Positions 29,411 to 57,714 of a stretch of 64,000 nt of DNA are shown piece after piece. The DNA is from Erysipelotrichaceae bacterium (GTDB taxonomy: Bacteria > Bacillota_I > Bacilli_A > ML615J-28 > CAG-313): NCBI GenBank assembly GCA_015059015.1, contig SVBG01000001.1:136026-200025 (forward strand), given 5' to 3'. Within the stretch, counting starts at the first letter, position 1, and every line of letters begins with the position of its first letter. The notes under the pieces were generated by a model. The model was given only the letters and a program-made list of their open reading frames with translations. It was not told where the DNA came from and ran no database searches. Made by a program: the position numbers and the translations under genes.

Positions 29411-31078
29411 TTATGTTGTTGAATCTCCAGCTGAAACGTTAGTCCAAAGGTATGATCCATCAGGTTGTTGATCTTTAATCCAACTACAGTTATCGTATTC
29501 AGTAAGTCCAGGATAGTTTGGAATACCATATCCAATAATTCTAGTATTATCTAATTTTATACGCCATACACCCACACAATTACTTCTATTTCCTTCTATT
29601 GTATAGATATATTCTCCATCACAGTGAGCTACTATACCAGTATGAGAAGAAACTCCATTGTATGTACTACCACTTTGGAAGAATATAATATCGCCTGTAG
29701 TTGGTATGTAATCTTCTTTATTTTTGAAGATTCCTTGTTCTTTACACCACTGCATTCCAGCTGTACATCCTTGGTATTTTAGTAGTAAATCATTACTTAG
29801 ACCAGCATGATACCAACACCAAGAAACAAATGTTGCACACCAAGGCTCACCATTATTTCCATACCATTTACCAAATTTAGTATCATTATCATAGTCACCA
29901 TTTGGTTTTAATCCTTCTTTAATGCCTACTTGTTCAAATGCAAGATCAACAATTCGTTTACGGTAGTCTACTAATACTTCACCTTTTACTGTAATCATAT
30001 ATTTAGTTCTAATTGAAGGATCACTTTCCTTATAACAAGTTATTGATGATCTACCTTCTTTAATACCAGATACTTCTAAAGCAGTATCATATTTAGTAGG
30101 GCGAGCAATTTCTGAATCATCACATAACCATACAAAATCACTAGGAATTTGGTTATTTGTTAAATTCATAGGTAAGATTTCACCAATTTTAATTTGACCT
30201 AATTCTTTAGTTGGTCTAATCATAAATTCAGTAGTAGGATCCCCAACTCTAATATTAATAGTTTGTTTTACATTAGGATTATGAATTGATGTTGCAGTAA
30301 CAATAACATCTCCAATTTTTTTTGCTGTTAAAACTCTGTTTTCAATTTCTGCAACACTATCATCATCAACAGTATATATAAAATCATCTTCAGTTGTTTC
30401 ATAAAGATCAGTAAAATCAAATACCCATATTTCAACTTTATCACCAACTGCAGTAATTGAAGTTGTAGAATCAAGTTGGAATGATGATTTATATACTGTA
30501 AATTCAAGTGATATTGTTTTAGATGCATCTTCTTTTAAGGTAAGAGTTGCAGTATATGTACCAACTCTTCTTGCGGTAATTGAACCATCAGTATTTATCT
30601 TTACACCATTTGTTGTATCAAATGTAATATTAAATAAATCAACGCTATCGTAGTTTTCTAAATTAAATCCAATTTTTTCTCCAACAACATAATAATCTTT
30701 ATCCATTTCTGCAATAGGATCTGGTAAAATAATATCATTATAGCTTGGATCAACTTCACCACATTCGCACTTGCCTTCTACAAAGTTATGTACATGAGGG
30801 GAAACATAATTTGGGTCTTCAGCACCACATTCACATTTGCCATCTACATATTCATGTACATGTGGAGGAACATAATTTGGATCTTCATCGCCACATTCAC
30901 ATTTGCCATCTACATATTCATGTGTGTGAGGAGGAACATAGTTAGGATCTGCTTCACCACATTCACAAATTCCTTCTATAAAACTATGCTCATGTGGTTC
31001 ATTATTATTTTTGTTTTTACATCCAGTAATGAATAAAAAAGCTAATAATAATATTAGAATTAGAAATTTATTTTTCAT
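29411..31078 (-). CDS. CHAP-domain lipoprotein with His/Cys repeats and Ig-like domains
   Basis: A 555-residue protein. Lipobox FITGC places the lipid on Cys20. Four 22-residue repeats follow (about 29-116) of the pattern H-x-H-x-[FY]-[IV]-x-G-x-C-x-C-G-x-x-D-P-x-Y; each has two His and two Cys, so metal binding is possible. Three Big_2-like Ig domains span about 118-365. The C-terminal CHAP domain has its cysteine in EPWCATFVSW and histidine in SSHTGIV. It likely trims peptidoglycan on the outer face of the membrane. It shares the C-terminal half with the shorter protein downstream and has a duplicated promoter. Confidence 0.9.
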   Translation of the reverse strand: MKNKFLILILLLAFLFITGCKNKNNNEPHEHSFIEGICECGEADPNYVPPHTHEYVDGKCECGDEDPNYVPPHVHEYVDGKCECGAEDPNYVSPHVHNFVEGKCECGEVDPSYNDIILPDPIAEMDKDYYVVGEKIGFNLENYDSVDLFNITFDTTNGVKINTDGSITARRVGTYTATLTLKEDASKTISLEFTVYKSSFQLDSTTSITAVGDKVEIWVFDFTDLYETTEDDFIYTVDDDSVAEIENRVLTAKKIGDVIVTATSIHNPNVKQTINIRVGDPTTEFMIRPTKELGQIKIGEILPMNLTNNQIPSDFVWLCDDSEIARPTKYDTALEVSGIKEGRSSITCYKESDPSIRTKYMITVKGEVLVDYRKRIVDLAFEQVGIKEGLKPNGDYDNDTKFGKWYGNNGEPWCATFVSWCWYHAGLSNDLLLKYQGCTAGMQWCKEQGIFKNKEDYIPTTGDIIFFQSGSTYNGVSSHTGIVAHCDGEYIYTIEGNRSNCVGVWRIKLDNTRIIGYGIPNYPGLTEYDNCSWIKDQQPDGSYLWTNVSAGDSTT

Positions 31079-31112
31079 ATCAATTCTCCAATTTCTTTAA
31101 ATTTACGATATA

Positions 31113-53647: not shown

Positions 53648-54550
53648 ATGTATAAAAAATTTAAAAAATTATTTGAAAAGTATAATATTATTAAGTGTGA
53701 ATGCCTTACAAAAGGTTTTTCAAAGGATGAAAAGTATATTATTGAAAGTAGTATAGGTAATAAATATATATTAAGGGTTTCAGATATTAGTTTAACCAAT
53801 AAAAGGAAAAATCAATTTGAAATATTAAAACAACTTAATGATTTAGATATATATTGTTCTAAACCAATAGAATTTGGAATATTAGATGAAAATAATTGCT
53901 ATACGTTATTATCATGGCTTGATGGTGTTGACGCAAGAATCGCAATAAAAGAATTAAGCAATGAAGAGGCTTATCAACTTGGTATACAGGCTGGTAAAAT
54001 ATTAAAAGAAATTCATAAAATTAAAATAGAAGAACCAATTGTATCATGGCGGGATAAATATTTACCAAAGATGGAAAGAAAAATTAAAGCATTGCTTGAG
54101 AGTTCAATGCAAATACCTCTTCAAGATGAGTTAATTAAGTATTATAGAGATAATGTTTATTTAATGAAAGATCGTATGGTTTGTTTTTGTCATGGTGATT
54201 ATCATTTAGGGAATATGATTGTTCATAATGGTAAAATTGGAATTATAGATTTTGATAAATGTGGAATAACTGATCCTATTGATGAGTTTAAGCCTTTTTG
54301 TTGGAACACAATGGAGAGTGAATATTTTGAAACAGGATTAATTGATGGATATTTTGATAATAATATCCCTGATGATTTCTTTAAAATATTAAAGTACTAT
54401 ACAATTGAATCAATGATATCTCATTTACCTTGGGCAGTAAATTTTGGAGAAGAAGAAGTTATTATTATGAAAAAGATTAATAATCTTCAAGTAAAGTGGT
54501 GGAATAATTTTAAATTAGATATTCCGACTTGGTATAAGAAAATTAAATAA
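53648..54550 (+). CDS. Aminoglycoside phosphotransferase (APH)-family kinase
   Basis: A 300-residue protein with the APH/choline-kinase fold: KYILRVSD near the N-terminus, the catalytic loop CHGDYHLGNMIV and metal motif IIDFDKCG. Family members phosphorylate small molecules such as aminoglycosides, macrolides, thiamine, homoserine or choline. Nothing here shows antibiotic resistance, and the sequence is not that of a well-known resistance enzyme. The ribosome site is GTAGGTGAT. Confidence 0.85.
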   Translation: MYKKFKKLFEKYNIIKCECLTKGFSKDEKYIIESSIGNKYILRVSDISLTNKRKNQFEILKQLNDLDIYCSKPIEFGILDENNCYTLLSWLDGVDARIAIKELSNEEAYQLGIQAGKILKEIHKIKIEEPIVSWRDKYLPKMERKIKALLESSMQIPLQDELIKYYRDNVYLMKDRMVCFCHGDYHLGNMIVHNGKIGIIDFDKCGITDPIDEFKPFCWNTMESEYFETGLIDGYFDNNIPDDFFKILKYYTIESMISHLPWAVNFGEEEVIIMKKINNLQVKWWNNFKLDIPTWYKKIK

Positions 54551-54657: not shown

Positions 54658-54666
54658 TGATATAAT
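54658..54666 (+). promoter_or_regulatory. Extended -10 promoter of the RiPP operon
   Basis: TGATATAAT at 54658-54666 (TG-N-TATAAT) with no good -35. An activator or the encoded XRE regulator may be needed. Confidence 0.5.
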
Positions 54667-54686
54667 AAAGTATAAAATTAAAAAAT

Positions 54687-54718
54687 AGGAGAATTTTAGA
54701 CAGTTTTTTGTCTATTTA
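54687..54718 (+). promoter_or_regulatory. Shine-Dalgarno site bridged to the start codon by a hairpin
   Basis: AGGAGA (54687-54692) is 26 bases from ATG 54719, too far for normal use. Between them TAGACA (54697-54702) and TGTCTA (54709-54714) form a perfect hairpin; folding it leaves eight bases, the normal distance. Translation of the regulator may therefore depend on this fold. Confidence 0.5.
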
Positions 54719-56188
54719 ATGAAGATAATGAATGATTTTAAATTTGGGAATTATTTAACTGAATTAAGAAAAGCAAAAGGTTATACTCAATATGAATTAG
54801 GCAAATTACTGGGTGTATCAGATAAAGCCGTAAGTAAATGGGAAAATGGTAAAGCAAAACCATCTACAAGTATTTTATTAAATTTAAGTAAAATATTAAA
54901 TGTTAGTTTAGAAGAACTATTACAATGTTCAACTGAAACTTCAAATAATATTTTTGAATTCAATACTTTTGTTTTTTTAAATGAAATTGAAATTAAATTA
55001 AAAAACAAATATGGTAATGAATTACCTATAGAAATTTGGAATTTATTTTTAGAAGAAAAAAGTGTTTTAAAAAATGAACCATATGTTTGTTATATGCTAA
55101 AAAATTTGTATGAAATTGGTAATGCTTTAAATAGTAATGATATACCATTTGCTTTAAATATAATGTTTAGCGGTTCATTAATTGTAAATATTCTAGGTTT
55201 ATGTGATGTTAATCCTTTAAAACCTCATTATTATTGTCCACACTGTAAAAAAATAGAATATGTAAAAGATGTTAAGGATGGCTGGGATTTAGAGGATAAG
55301 GTATGTTCTTGTAATAATATGTTTATTAAAGATGGACACGATATTCCATTTTTAACATATAAAGATAGTTTTAGTAATATAGCTAATTATTATATATTTA
55401 TTGCGAAACATCATATAGATAAGGCAAAACAAATTGTTGAAAAACAATTTAGTAATATAAATCATATAGCTTGTCTAAGTGGAATCAGTAATTTTAACTA
55501 TAAATTTATTGATATTAGATTAGGATGTTTTGGAGTGAAAAGTATTATTGATCATATAAAGTATCCAATGAATTATGATGAATTCAATAAAAAGGTTAGA
55601 AGTAAAGAAAAAGATAAGTATGTAGATTATCTTGAAGATTGTTTTTCAATAGTTTTACTTGAAAATCCATATTTTAATAAAATTTTAAATATGAATATCG
55701 ATACAAAAACTGCTAATTATCTAAGTAGCAGTAATATTAGTAAATTAGTTTCAAATATAAAAAAAATAACTAGAAATAAAATACTTTCACAGATTATTGA
55801 TGTTATAAATCCAATTACAATTAATGAATGTATAAAATGCGTAAATCTTATTTATAGTGATTTTGAAAAGAGTTATTATAGCGATTTATTGTTAAGTCTT
55901 AAAAATAATAAAATTGAATTATATGATGTTATTACTTGTAGAGAGGATTTATTTTCAATACTTATTAAAAAGTTTAATTATAATGATTTTAATGAGGTTG
56001 CAAATTTGATTACTAACGAAATTAGAAAAGGAAGAAAATTTTCAAAATATGGTAATCTTATTAATGAAAAATTATTTGAAATGGATGAAGTGTTTAAAGA
56101 AGTCAATAACTTTGATAAAGTGAAATATTTAACATCTAAAAGTTATTCAATAATATTATTTAAATTGATGTTATATATACTAAATTAA
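54719..56188 (+). CDS. XRE-family regulator of the RiPP operon
   Basis: A 489-residue protein. Residues ~5-68 are a Cro/CI-type helix-turn-helix (YLTELRKAKGYTQYELGKLLG, DKAVSKWENGKAKPS). The large C-terminal part is not recognised; it contains a possible zinc site with CPHCKK near residue 173 and CSC near residue 200. It ends 22 bases before the first precursor peptide gene without a terminator, so it is probably the first gene of the RiPP operon and its regulator. The C-terminal domain could sense the peptide or a metal; this is inference. Confidence 0.8.
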   Translation: MKIMNDFKFGNYLTELRKAKGYTQYELGKLLGVSDKAVSKWENGKAKPSTSILLNLSKILNVSLEELLQCSTETSNNIFEFNTFVFLNEIEIKLKNKYGNELPIEIWNLFLEEKSVLKNEPYVCYMLKNLYEIGNALNSNDIPFALNIMFSGSLIVNILGLCDVNPLKPHYYCPHCKKIEYVKDVKDGWDLEDKVCSCNNMFIKDGHDIPFLTYKDSFSNIANYYIFIAKHHIDKAKQIVEKQFSNINHIACLSGISNFNYKFIDIRLGCFGVKSIIDHIKYPMNYDEFNKKVRSKEKDKYVDYLEDCFSIVLLENPYFNKILNMNIDTKTANYLSSSNISKLVSNIKKITRNKILSQIIDVINPITINECIKCVNLIYSDFEKSYYSDLLLSLKNNKIELYDVITCREDLFSILIKKFNYNDFNEVANLITNEIRKGRKFSKYGNLINEKLFEMDEVFKEVNNFDKVKYLTSKSYSIILFKLMLYILN

Positions 56189-56210
56189 AAAAAAAATGAA
56201 GGGAGAAAAT

Positions 56211-56372
56211 ATGAACTTAGAATTTATTAATAAATTAAATTTTGAATTTGATAATTTATCAGGATTTACAAGTATCAGTTTTGGTAATCAATGCGGTGGA
56301 AGTGACTGTGATTGCTGGACTGGAAATAATTGCAATTGTGATTGTAATTGCGACTGTTCATCTGACGATTAG
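56211..56372 (+). CDS. Cys-rich RiPP precursor peptide A
   Basis: A 53-residue peptide starting at ATG 56211 behind AAGGGAGAA. The leader begins MNLEFINKLNFEFDNL. The core has eight cysteines (28, 33, 35, 41, 43, 45, 47, 49), mostly alternating with Asp or Asn (SDCDCWTGNNCNCDC), and a short SSDD end. The leader start and CxCDC core are shared with peptide B at 57445. It lies 21 bases before a radical SAM enzyme. Thioether crosslinks of the ranthipeptide or sactipeptide type are the likely modification; a metal-binding product is an alternative. Confidence 0.8.
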   Translation: MNLEFINKLNFEFDNLSGFTSISFGNQCGGSDCDCWTGNNCNCDCNCDCSSDD

Positions 56373-56393
56373 ATTTTTTGAGGTAATATTTAA

Positions 56394-57440
56394 ATGAATA
56401 AAAAATTTACTACTTGTTGGATTACAGTTAATCGAGCATGTAATTTAAGATGTACGTGGTGTTATGCTAAAGAAACTGGATTTAAACTTAATGACGAATT
56501 AAAAATTGAAGATGGTATTAAAATTGTTGATTTATGTGTAGAATTAGGTATTAAAACAATTATTTTAATTGGCGGGGAACCAACAATATATTCAAAGATA
56601 TTTGAATTAATTCAGTATATAAAAAGTTTTAATATTAGAGTAGTATTAGTAACTAATGGAGTGATTTTAAAAGATATTAATTTAGTAAGAAAATATATTG
56701 ATTGTGGAATCGATTCTTTTTCTATTTCATTAAAGGCATCTAATAGTCTACTTTATAAAAAGGTCACAGGATATGATCAATTTAATAATGTTATGAATAC
56801 TATAAATAATTTAGCTGTTTTAGGAGCCAAATTTAGCGTTACTAGCGTTTTAACTAATGAAAATATCAATAATTTTTTAGCCGGTTTAGTTGAAGCAAAG
56901 AATAATGGTGCAAAGTCTTTTGGATTATCTTTTTGTTATAATTTTGACATAAATAATGAAACGAAGCAAGAGTTTTTACGTAATAATAATCCATATATAT
57001 TAGCAAAAAATTTTAGTAATATTTATCCCGAAATATGTGAAAAATTAAAAGGATGCTCATTTTCATTAGAACAGTCGTTGCCACTTTGTGTTTGGGAAAA
57101 AAGCTTTATTGATGAAATGAATAATAACGGACATTTACGTTCAATTTGTCAACTTTTAAAAGGTAATGGATTATTATTTGATACTGATTTAAACTTAATC
57201 CCGTGTAATGCGATGTATAAGTTAAAGTATGGTAAATTTGGAATAGATTTTAATAATGCAGAAACATTATTTTCATATATAAATAGTGAAAAAATAGTTA
57301 AATTTTTCAATAAACTAAGGGGGGTTCCTGATGAAGAATGCCTAAAATGTTCTATTTGTAAATATTGTGGTGGAGGATGCGTTACTAATTGGACTAATTA
57401 TAGTTTTGACGAGTTAAAAACATTAAAAGAAAGGAGCTAA
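56394..57440 (+). CDS. Radical SAM/SPASM-like peptide maturase
   Basis: A 348-residue protein. CNLRCTWC near residue 16 is the CxxxCxxC site of the 4Fe-4S cluster that cleaves S-adenosylmethionine, followed by the IGGEPT motif. The C-terminal region has SPASM-like cysteines for auxiliary clusters: a Cys in SICQLL, one in LIPCNAM, and the tight group CLKCSICKYCGGGC. Such enzymes install carbon-sulfur or carbon-carbon links in precursor peptides. It is flanked on both sides by precursor genes, and no separate RRE protein is seen. No exporter or protease follows in the operon. Confidence 0.92.
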   Translation: MNKKFTTCWITVNRACNLRCTWCYAKETGFKLNDELKIEDGIKIVDLCVELGIKTIILIGGEPTIYSKIFELIQYIKSFNIRVVLVTNGVILKDINLVRKYIDCGIDSFSISLKASNSLLYKKVTGYDQFNNVMNTINNLAVLGAKFSVTSVLTNENINNFLAGLVEAKNNGAKSFGLSFCYNFDINNETKQEFLRNNNPYILAKNFSNIYPEICEKLKGCSFSLEQSLPLCVWEKSFIDEMNNNGHLRSICQLLKGNGLLFDTDLNLIPCNAMYKLKYGKFGIDFNNAETLFSYINSEKIVKFFNKLRGVPDEECLKCSICKYCGGGCVTNWTNYSFDELKTLKERS

Positions 57441-57444
57441 ACAT

Positions 57445-57612
57445 ATGGAATTAGATTTTTTAAATAAATTAGATATTAATCCAACATGTTCACTTCAAGG
57501 CTTTGGGGTTAATAAAAAGATGAGTGTTAATGATTGCTCGTGGCAATGTGTATGCGATTGCGATTGTCATGATGAAGGAATTTGTCAATGTGCTGATTGT
57601 TCTGGTGAGTGA
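57445..57612 (+). CDS. Cys-rich RiPP precursor peptide B
   Basis: A 55-residue peptide starting at ATG 57445 behind AAAGGAGC, four bases after the maturase stop. The leader MELDFLNKLDIN matches MNLEFINKLNFE of peptide A. It has nine cysteines (15, 31, 35, 37, 39, 41, 47, 49, 52) with CVCDCDC and CQCADC patterns. It ends with TGA at 57610-57612 followed by a strong terminator. The shared leader with a different core is typical of two substrates of one enzyme. Confidence 0.8.
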   Translation: MELDFLNKLDINPTCSLQGFGVNKKMSVNDCSWQCVCDCDCHDEGICQCADCSGE

Positions 57613-57625
57613 AACAATTTCAGTA

Positions 57626-57652
57626 AAAAACTCTATTAATTTAGAGTTTTTT
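57626..57652 (+). terminator. Terminator of the RiPP operon
   Basis: AAAAACTCTA (57626-57635) and TAGAGTTTTT, loop TTAATT, T6. Confidence 0.9.
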
Positions 57653-57714
57653 CTTTTATAATATTGCAAAAATTTTTAATATAGTATATATTGATCATAA
57701 GAGGAGGAATTAAA

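Follow-up and report, generated by a model that had tools for sequence, protein, structure and literature searches.

What does a bacterium make with a radical SAM enzyme whose gene lies between two small cysteine-rich peptides, and does the arrangement recur in other genomes? We examined such an operon in a 64,000-nucleotide stretch of an Erysipelotrichaceae genome (the window). The peptides are very probably modified precursors and the enzyme their maturase. The locus as a whole is best read as a minimal RiPP cassette, and its modification is likely to be centred on cysteine.

The operon and its two peptides

Four genes, all on the plus strand and read directly as open reading frames, are followed by a hairpin:

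54719-56188, plus strand: XRE-type regulator, 489 amino acids (open reading frame; HTH_3, E 1.6e-16)
56211-56372, plus strand: probable precursor peptide A, 53 amino acids, 8 cysteines, MNLEFINKLNFEFDNLSGFTSISFGNQCGGSDCDCWTGNNCNCDCNCDCSSDD (open reading frame; without an NCBIfam or Pfam match)
56394-57440, plus strand: radical SAM/SPASM enzyme, very probably the maturase, 348 amino acids (open reading frame; PF04055, E 2.8e-23; family alignment)
57445-57612, plus strand: probable precursor peptide B, 55 amino acids, 9 cysteines, MELDFLNKLDINPTCSLQGFGVNKKMSVNDCSWQCVCDCDCHDEGICQCADCSGE (open reading frame)
57622-57654, plus strand: AT-rich hairpin, then a T run (folding energy)

This layout agrees with the original prediction, which placed 53- and 55-residue peptides on either side of a radical SAM/SPASM enzyme, with an XRE gene upstream and a terminator at the end. 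The regulator and peptide A are probably co-transcribed, since they run in the same direction 22 nucleotides apart. The next gaps are 21 nucleotides (peptide A to enzyme) and 4 nucleotides (enzyme to peptide B), and a purine-rich ribosome site precedes both peptide genes. The hairpin (-11.2 kcal/mol, z -4.6) and its T run form a probable intrinsic terminator. A consensus terminator scan, which needs three GC pairs, does not list this AT-rich hairpin. Upstream, a phosphotransferase gene (53648-54550; PF01636) looks like a separate unit. As also predicted, the window operon contains no exporter or protease gene.

Peptide A consists of a leader (approximately residues 1-25) and a Cys-Asp/Asn core (residues 26-53). 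In peptide B one of the nine cysteines (C15) sits in the leader. Both peptides start with M-x-L-[ED]-F-[IL]-N-K-L (MNLEFINKL in A, MELDFLNKL in B), as the first reading had noticed, and the leader stretches of the two genes are related at the DNA level. The predicted cysteine counts of eight and nine hold, but the cores are not pure C-D-C-D runs: cysteine alternates with Asp, Asn and other residues. Neither peptide has a family match in Pfam or in NCBIfam (none at E <= 1). The original prediction could not place them in a named family, and every model tried (NCBIfam, Pfam, SCIFF, FibroRumin) leaves them unmatched. The nucleotide pattern TGYRAYTGY occurs 21 times where 8.6 occurrences are expected, and 7 of the 21 fall in the two peptide genes. 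This excess, together with a pairing of enzyme and cysteine-rich peptide that recurs across phyla, argues that the peptide pattern exceeds chance.

The regulator is a strange chimera. Its residues 150-214 match the zinc segment of PolC-type DNA polymerase III (TIGR01405, E 4.7e-24; NPLKPHYYCPHC...KDGHDIPF), and searches of the related loci and of 43 genomes of the order gave no relative for the rest of its C-terminal part. We rejected the regulator as a component of the maturase family because neither the related loci nor these 43 genomes share it. Its PADLOC match to RmrA/HTH covers the general HTH part alone, and we rejected it as a sign of defence.

Two further observations concern the same genome. 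A predicted lipoprotein with tandem HxHxYVDGKCECGDEDPNYVPP-type repeats is encoded at 29411-31096 of the window (minus strand). Outside the window (L002; G000:C3:309668-312042), a second SPASM-type radical SAM gene (463 amino acids) overlaps that of a membrane protein ending in SSCACACACACAGGGRAGCSMKDFYKHP, a possible CxC-run substrate.

The enzyme and its relatives

The radical SAM cluster motif CxxxCxxC corresponds to C16, C20 and C23 of the enzyme. Its SPASM-like cysteines are C232, C252, C271, C316, C319, C325 and C329, with a spacing (20-19-45-3-6-4) that is nearly constant in 51 aligned enzymes. All 51 have C16, C20, C23, C232, C252, C271, C316 and C325; C329 is kept in 50 and C319 in 49. 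Compared with the SPASM pattern CX9-15GX4C-gap-CX2CX5CX3C-gap-C, the first six cysteines are invariant or nearly so, the seventh and final one is absent in 39 of the 51, and C232 is an extra, invariant linker cysteine. In SuiB, the streptide maturase, a linker cysteine completes Aux I (PMC6231123). By this analogy C232 may play that part in the present enzyme, and a site of Aux II may be open or have a non-cysteine ligand.

TIGR04085 is matched by 43 of 48 family members. Many NCBIfam radical SAM models also match the enzyme, each with a score far under its cut-off, so that none of the curated cut-offs is passed. The lowest E-value among the 48 members is 5e-29 (one member, heme b synthase model); otherwise none is below 1e-27. 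A PADLOC pVip match, which covers the general radical SAM part alone, was rejected as evidence of defence. The structure model (pLDDT 93, pTM 0.91) aligns with SuiB, anSME and ChlB along most of the chain, with SkfB also near; all are peptide-modifying SPASM enzymes. SuiB and anSME are the closest, but their substrates are unrelated to the present ones. A fused leader-binding (RRE) domain is not apparent in the enzyme, which at 348 amino acids has no room for one.

The enzyme was not found in 42 other genomes of its order. Scans for close relatives with the enzyme alone gave no match in viral contigs, genome contigs or plasmids. A class-wide search returned a 39% relative adjoining a 94-residue peptide of CDC runs, and the order of that relative's genome gave two more. 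A search of genome contigs with a four-row alignment then yielded 72 loci, approximately 54 of them full or near-full relatives. One full relative (L083/L111) came from the viral contigs, on a contig classed as viral (IMGVR_UViG_3300047523_000011). The 52 other enzyme loci belong to Bacillota, Actinomycetota, Verrucomicrobiota, many candidate-phyla bacteria (among them Saccharibacteria, WWE3, Kaiserbacteria and Nomurabacteria) and two Pacearchaeota; metagenome bins are named here as their submitters titled them. The tree places the window enzyme next to L011 (support 100/99) within a Bacillota group. Searches of open-access papers on ranthipeptides, candidate phyla, Saccharibacteria, metallothionein, FibroRumin and ACGX turned up no description of the family. 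Hence, within the libraries and the open literature, the maturase family is apparently unnamed.

Probable substrates and partner genes across the family

A small cysteine-rich open reading frame, assigned by eye, adjoins the enzyme in 49 of 53 loci. For 48 of these 49 the gap is less than about 175 nucleotides, usually with a strong ribosome site; L019, L024, L054 and L061 have no assigned precursor. Because assignment by eye can mislead, we also ran a mechanical rule on all long open reading frames of the same loci (a length of 30-150 amino acids, a ribosome site, a cysteine content of at least 8% with xCxC in the core, at most 120 nucleotides away, same strand). By this rule 24 of 51 enzymes pass, compared with 6 of 369 control genes. 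All six control genes neighbour the same precursors, which leaves 0 independent passes among the 369.

Precursor length, cysteine number (1 to 26) and core repeats vary widely, while the leaders are alike. The original prediction expected the leader to be conserved in related genomes, and it does recur: MISLDFINK in L012 matches both window leaders. In the wider family the leader takes the form LLxxxKGTxIxAPIAxGV. These are the hallmarks of RiPPs: a short precursor gene adjoining the maturase, a conserved leader and a variable core. Two credible precursors were seen at the window locus only, among the family loci inspected; the two-precursor layout seems particular to the window genome.

Some precursors depart strongly from the window peptides. 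The cores of L037 and L040 hold a single cysteine (NYDCDP; the L040 peptide is MLKELLELSKSTDIVAEDTVEGAKGNVANYDCDP). The Asp/Asn partner is nearly absent from the cores of L029 and L018 (the latter with GPCSACGAC). In L011 (7055-8149) the CDC segment forms the N-terminal stretch of a 364-residue protein that otherwise consists of a BspA-type leucine-rich repeat (PF13306, E 1.4e-45); here the modified stretch may stay as a protein domain. MSCRAMM matches of the L017 core were dismissed as Asp-rich low complexity.

A gene for an HExxH peptidase-like protein lies within 400 nucleotides on the same strand in 20 of 53 loci, compared with 2 of 330 control genes. Loci with this gene are mostly from candidate phyla or archaea, and the proteins fall in a few related families (L020-L025, L028, L029, L032-L034, L048 and L055-L061). 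None of the seven HExxH proteins examined has a Pfam assignment above cut-off, and a single-sequence structure model reaches a pLDDT of 44. A natural guess is that the protein is a candidate leader peptidase. In L050-L052 the enzyme carries a fused GNAT domain; in L037, L040 and L045 such a domain is encoded upstream of it. An ABC-signature open reading frame within 3 kb was found by motif search in 1 of 53 loci, some of whose contigs end early. The window operon has none of these partners (HExxH, GNAT or ABC).

Chemistry, alternatives and meaning

Which modification the enzyme makes is best approached through the systems it resembles. The freyrasin/PapB ranthipeptides (NF047865) also combine a SPASM radical SAM maturase with a Cys/Asp-rich repeated core and a small adjoining precursor gene. 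However, the PapB relatives compared here have open frames of 368-690 amino acids, whereas the present family has about 350 and no RRE. The members checked fall far short of the NF047865 cut-off of 340 bits (L042 55.9 bits, L050 55.3 bits), and the best of 48 members reaches E 2.5e-21, whereas the PapB-like proteins from that class score between 1e-41 and 5e-86. SCIFF/thermocellin (CteA/CteB) shares a Clostridia-type SPASM maturase and a cysteine-rich precursor, but SCIFF precursors have approximately six cysteines in 45 residues, and CteB is a 453-residue protein with an RRE, unlike the present enzyme. No NCBIfam SCIFF precursor model matches the window peptides at E <= 1. FibroRumin (TIGR04135) is likewise a radical SAM-modified cysteine-rich RiPP. 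One of 36 precursors (L022) matches this model at E 0.041, in the cysteine core only (13.9 bits, cut-off 45); the window peptides do not match.

The cores themselves are CxC-rich and very acidic (328 acidic versus 69 basic residues). The middle residue of CxC is Asp in 46%, Asn in 15% and His in 10%. Asp precedes cysteine directly (position -1) in 40% of cases compared with 19% in shuffled cores, with a z of 9 that is an upper bound because the sequences are related. Asp is also weakly enriched at +1 and -3. At +4 there is no enrichment (19% observed, 19% expected). PapB and QhpD form Cys-Asp S-C(beta) links (PMC11002830, PMC8172795), and PapB requires Cys-x3-Asp (PMC8172795). Since this spacing is not enriched here, a freyrasin-like geometry is unsupported, and Asp at -1 as the acceptor would imply an unusually small ring. 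Furthermore, a Cys-Asp thioether, if obligatory, would leave part of the family unexplained, because some cores are nearly free of Asp/Asn (L029, L018) and others hold a single cysteine (L037, L040). The idea that the enzyme is a ranthipeptide synthase gains no support here: the family scores far below the PapB model, has no fused RRE and its cores lack the Cys-x3-Asp enrichment. Ranthipeptide chemistry in the broader sense is plausible.

From these comparisons we infer the following route for the minimal RiPP cassette. The enzyme would act on both flanking peptides. Because it has no RRE domain, the hydrophobic N-terminal leader ([DE]F[IL]NK...) would dock directly on the enzyme itself; a precedent is SuiB, whose leader is bound outside its RRE (PMC6231123). 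The radical enzyme would then modify the cysteine-rich acidic core repeatedly, most commonly at an [Asp/Asn]-Cys dipeptide. The likeliest chemistry would be S-C links from cysteine (ranthionine- or sactionine-like), aided by the auxiliary Fe-S clusters; thioether formation falls somewhat short of an even chance in our estimate. Because no exporter is encoded, the product would probably act, or bind metal, inside the cell.

An alternative is a metal-binding peptide system. The acidic CxC cores would then resemble metallothioneins or metallophores, the enzyme would tune or protect them, and the product would be kept in the cell to store or sense metal, controlled by the XRE protein. The composition of the cores and the near absence of ABC-signature genes fit this proposal. 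We consider it unlikely, as genes for metal transporters or metal regulators were not seen to recur beside the family and the XRE gene is not conserved; it also overlaps the RiPP cassette reading and does not exclude it. Formylglycine formation and epimerisation are both less likely than a thioether. An anSME-like enzyme could oxidize core cysteines to formylglycine or related carbonyl residues with no cross-link. Single-cysteine cores need no partner residue for this, the enrichment sits at the residue next to cysteine, and over the whole length anSME is one of the best structural matches. But identity to anSME is only 17-20%, a CxPxR-like motif is missing, and cores with 16-26 cysteines would be an odd density for aldehydes, which makes oxidation a rather improbable outcome.

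An epimerase would invert residues to the D form and give an alternating L/D ribbon. The i/i+2 alternation of cysteines would suit such a product, EpeE/YydG structures are among the fold matches, and 28 of the 51 enzymes have an additional cysteine, C181. However, TM-scores to EpeE are low (0.45-0.48), and as C181 is not conserved there is no universal cysteine hydrogen donor outside the likely cluster ligands; we regard this reading as very unlikely. Finally, the peptides could be unmodified and merely adjoin an unrelated radical enzyme. The same pairing, together with related leaders, appears in several phyla, and we give this view hardly any credence.

As a system, the RiPP cassette is of a type already known, and would be more only if its chemistry proves new. 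Tentatively, and with more doubt than confidence, we suggest that it represents a new RiPP class that occurs in gut Bacillota and extends to candidate-phyla bacteria and DPANN archaea. Its SPASM enzyme, free of an RRE and with an incompletely cysteine-ligated auxiliary cluster, would modify [Asp/Asn]-Cys dipeptides at up to about two dozen places in a chain; in one case the target would be the N-terminal segment of a leucine-rich-repeat protein.

One odd operon thus leads to a broad family of enzymes that share a clear sequence signature, and to approximately fifty matching substrates of very different length with one to 26 cysteines. This breadth makes the chemistry directly testable: the single-cysteine members (NYDCDP) are a simple substrate for finding the bond that is made. 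To our knowledge, few RiPP systems have been documented in candidate-phyla bacteria or DPANN archaea. A product in these cells would tell which peptides reduced cells keep.
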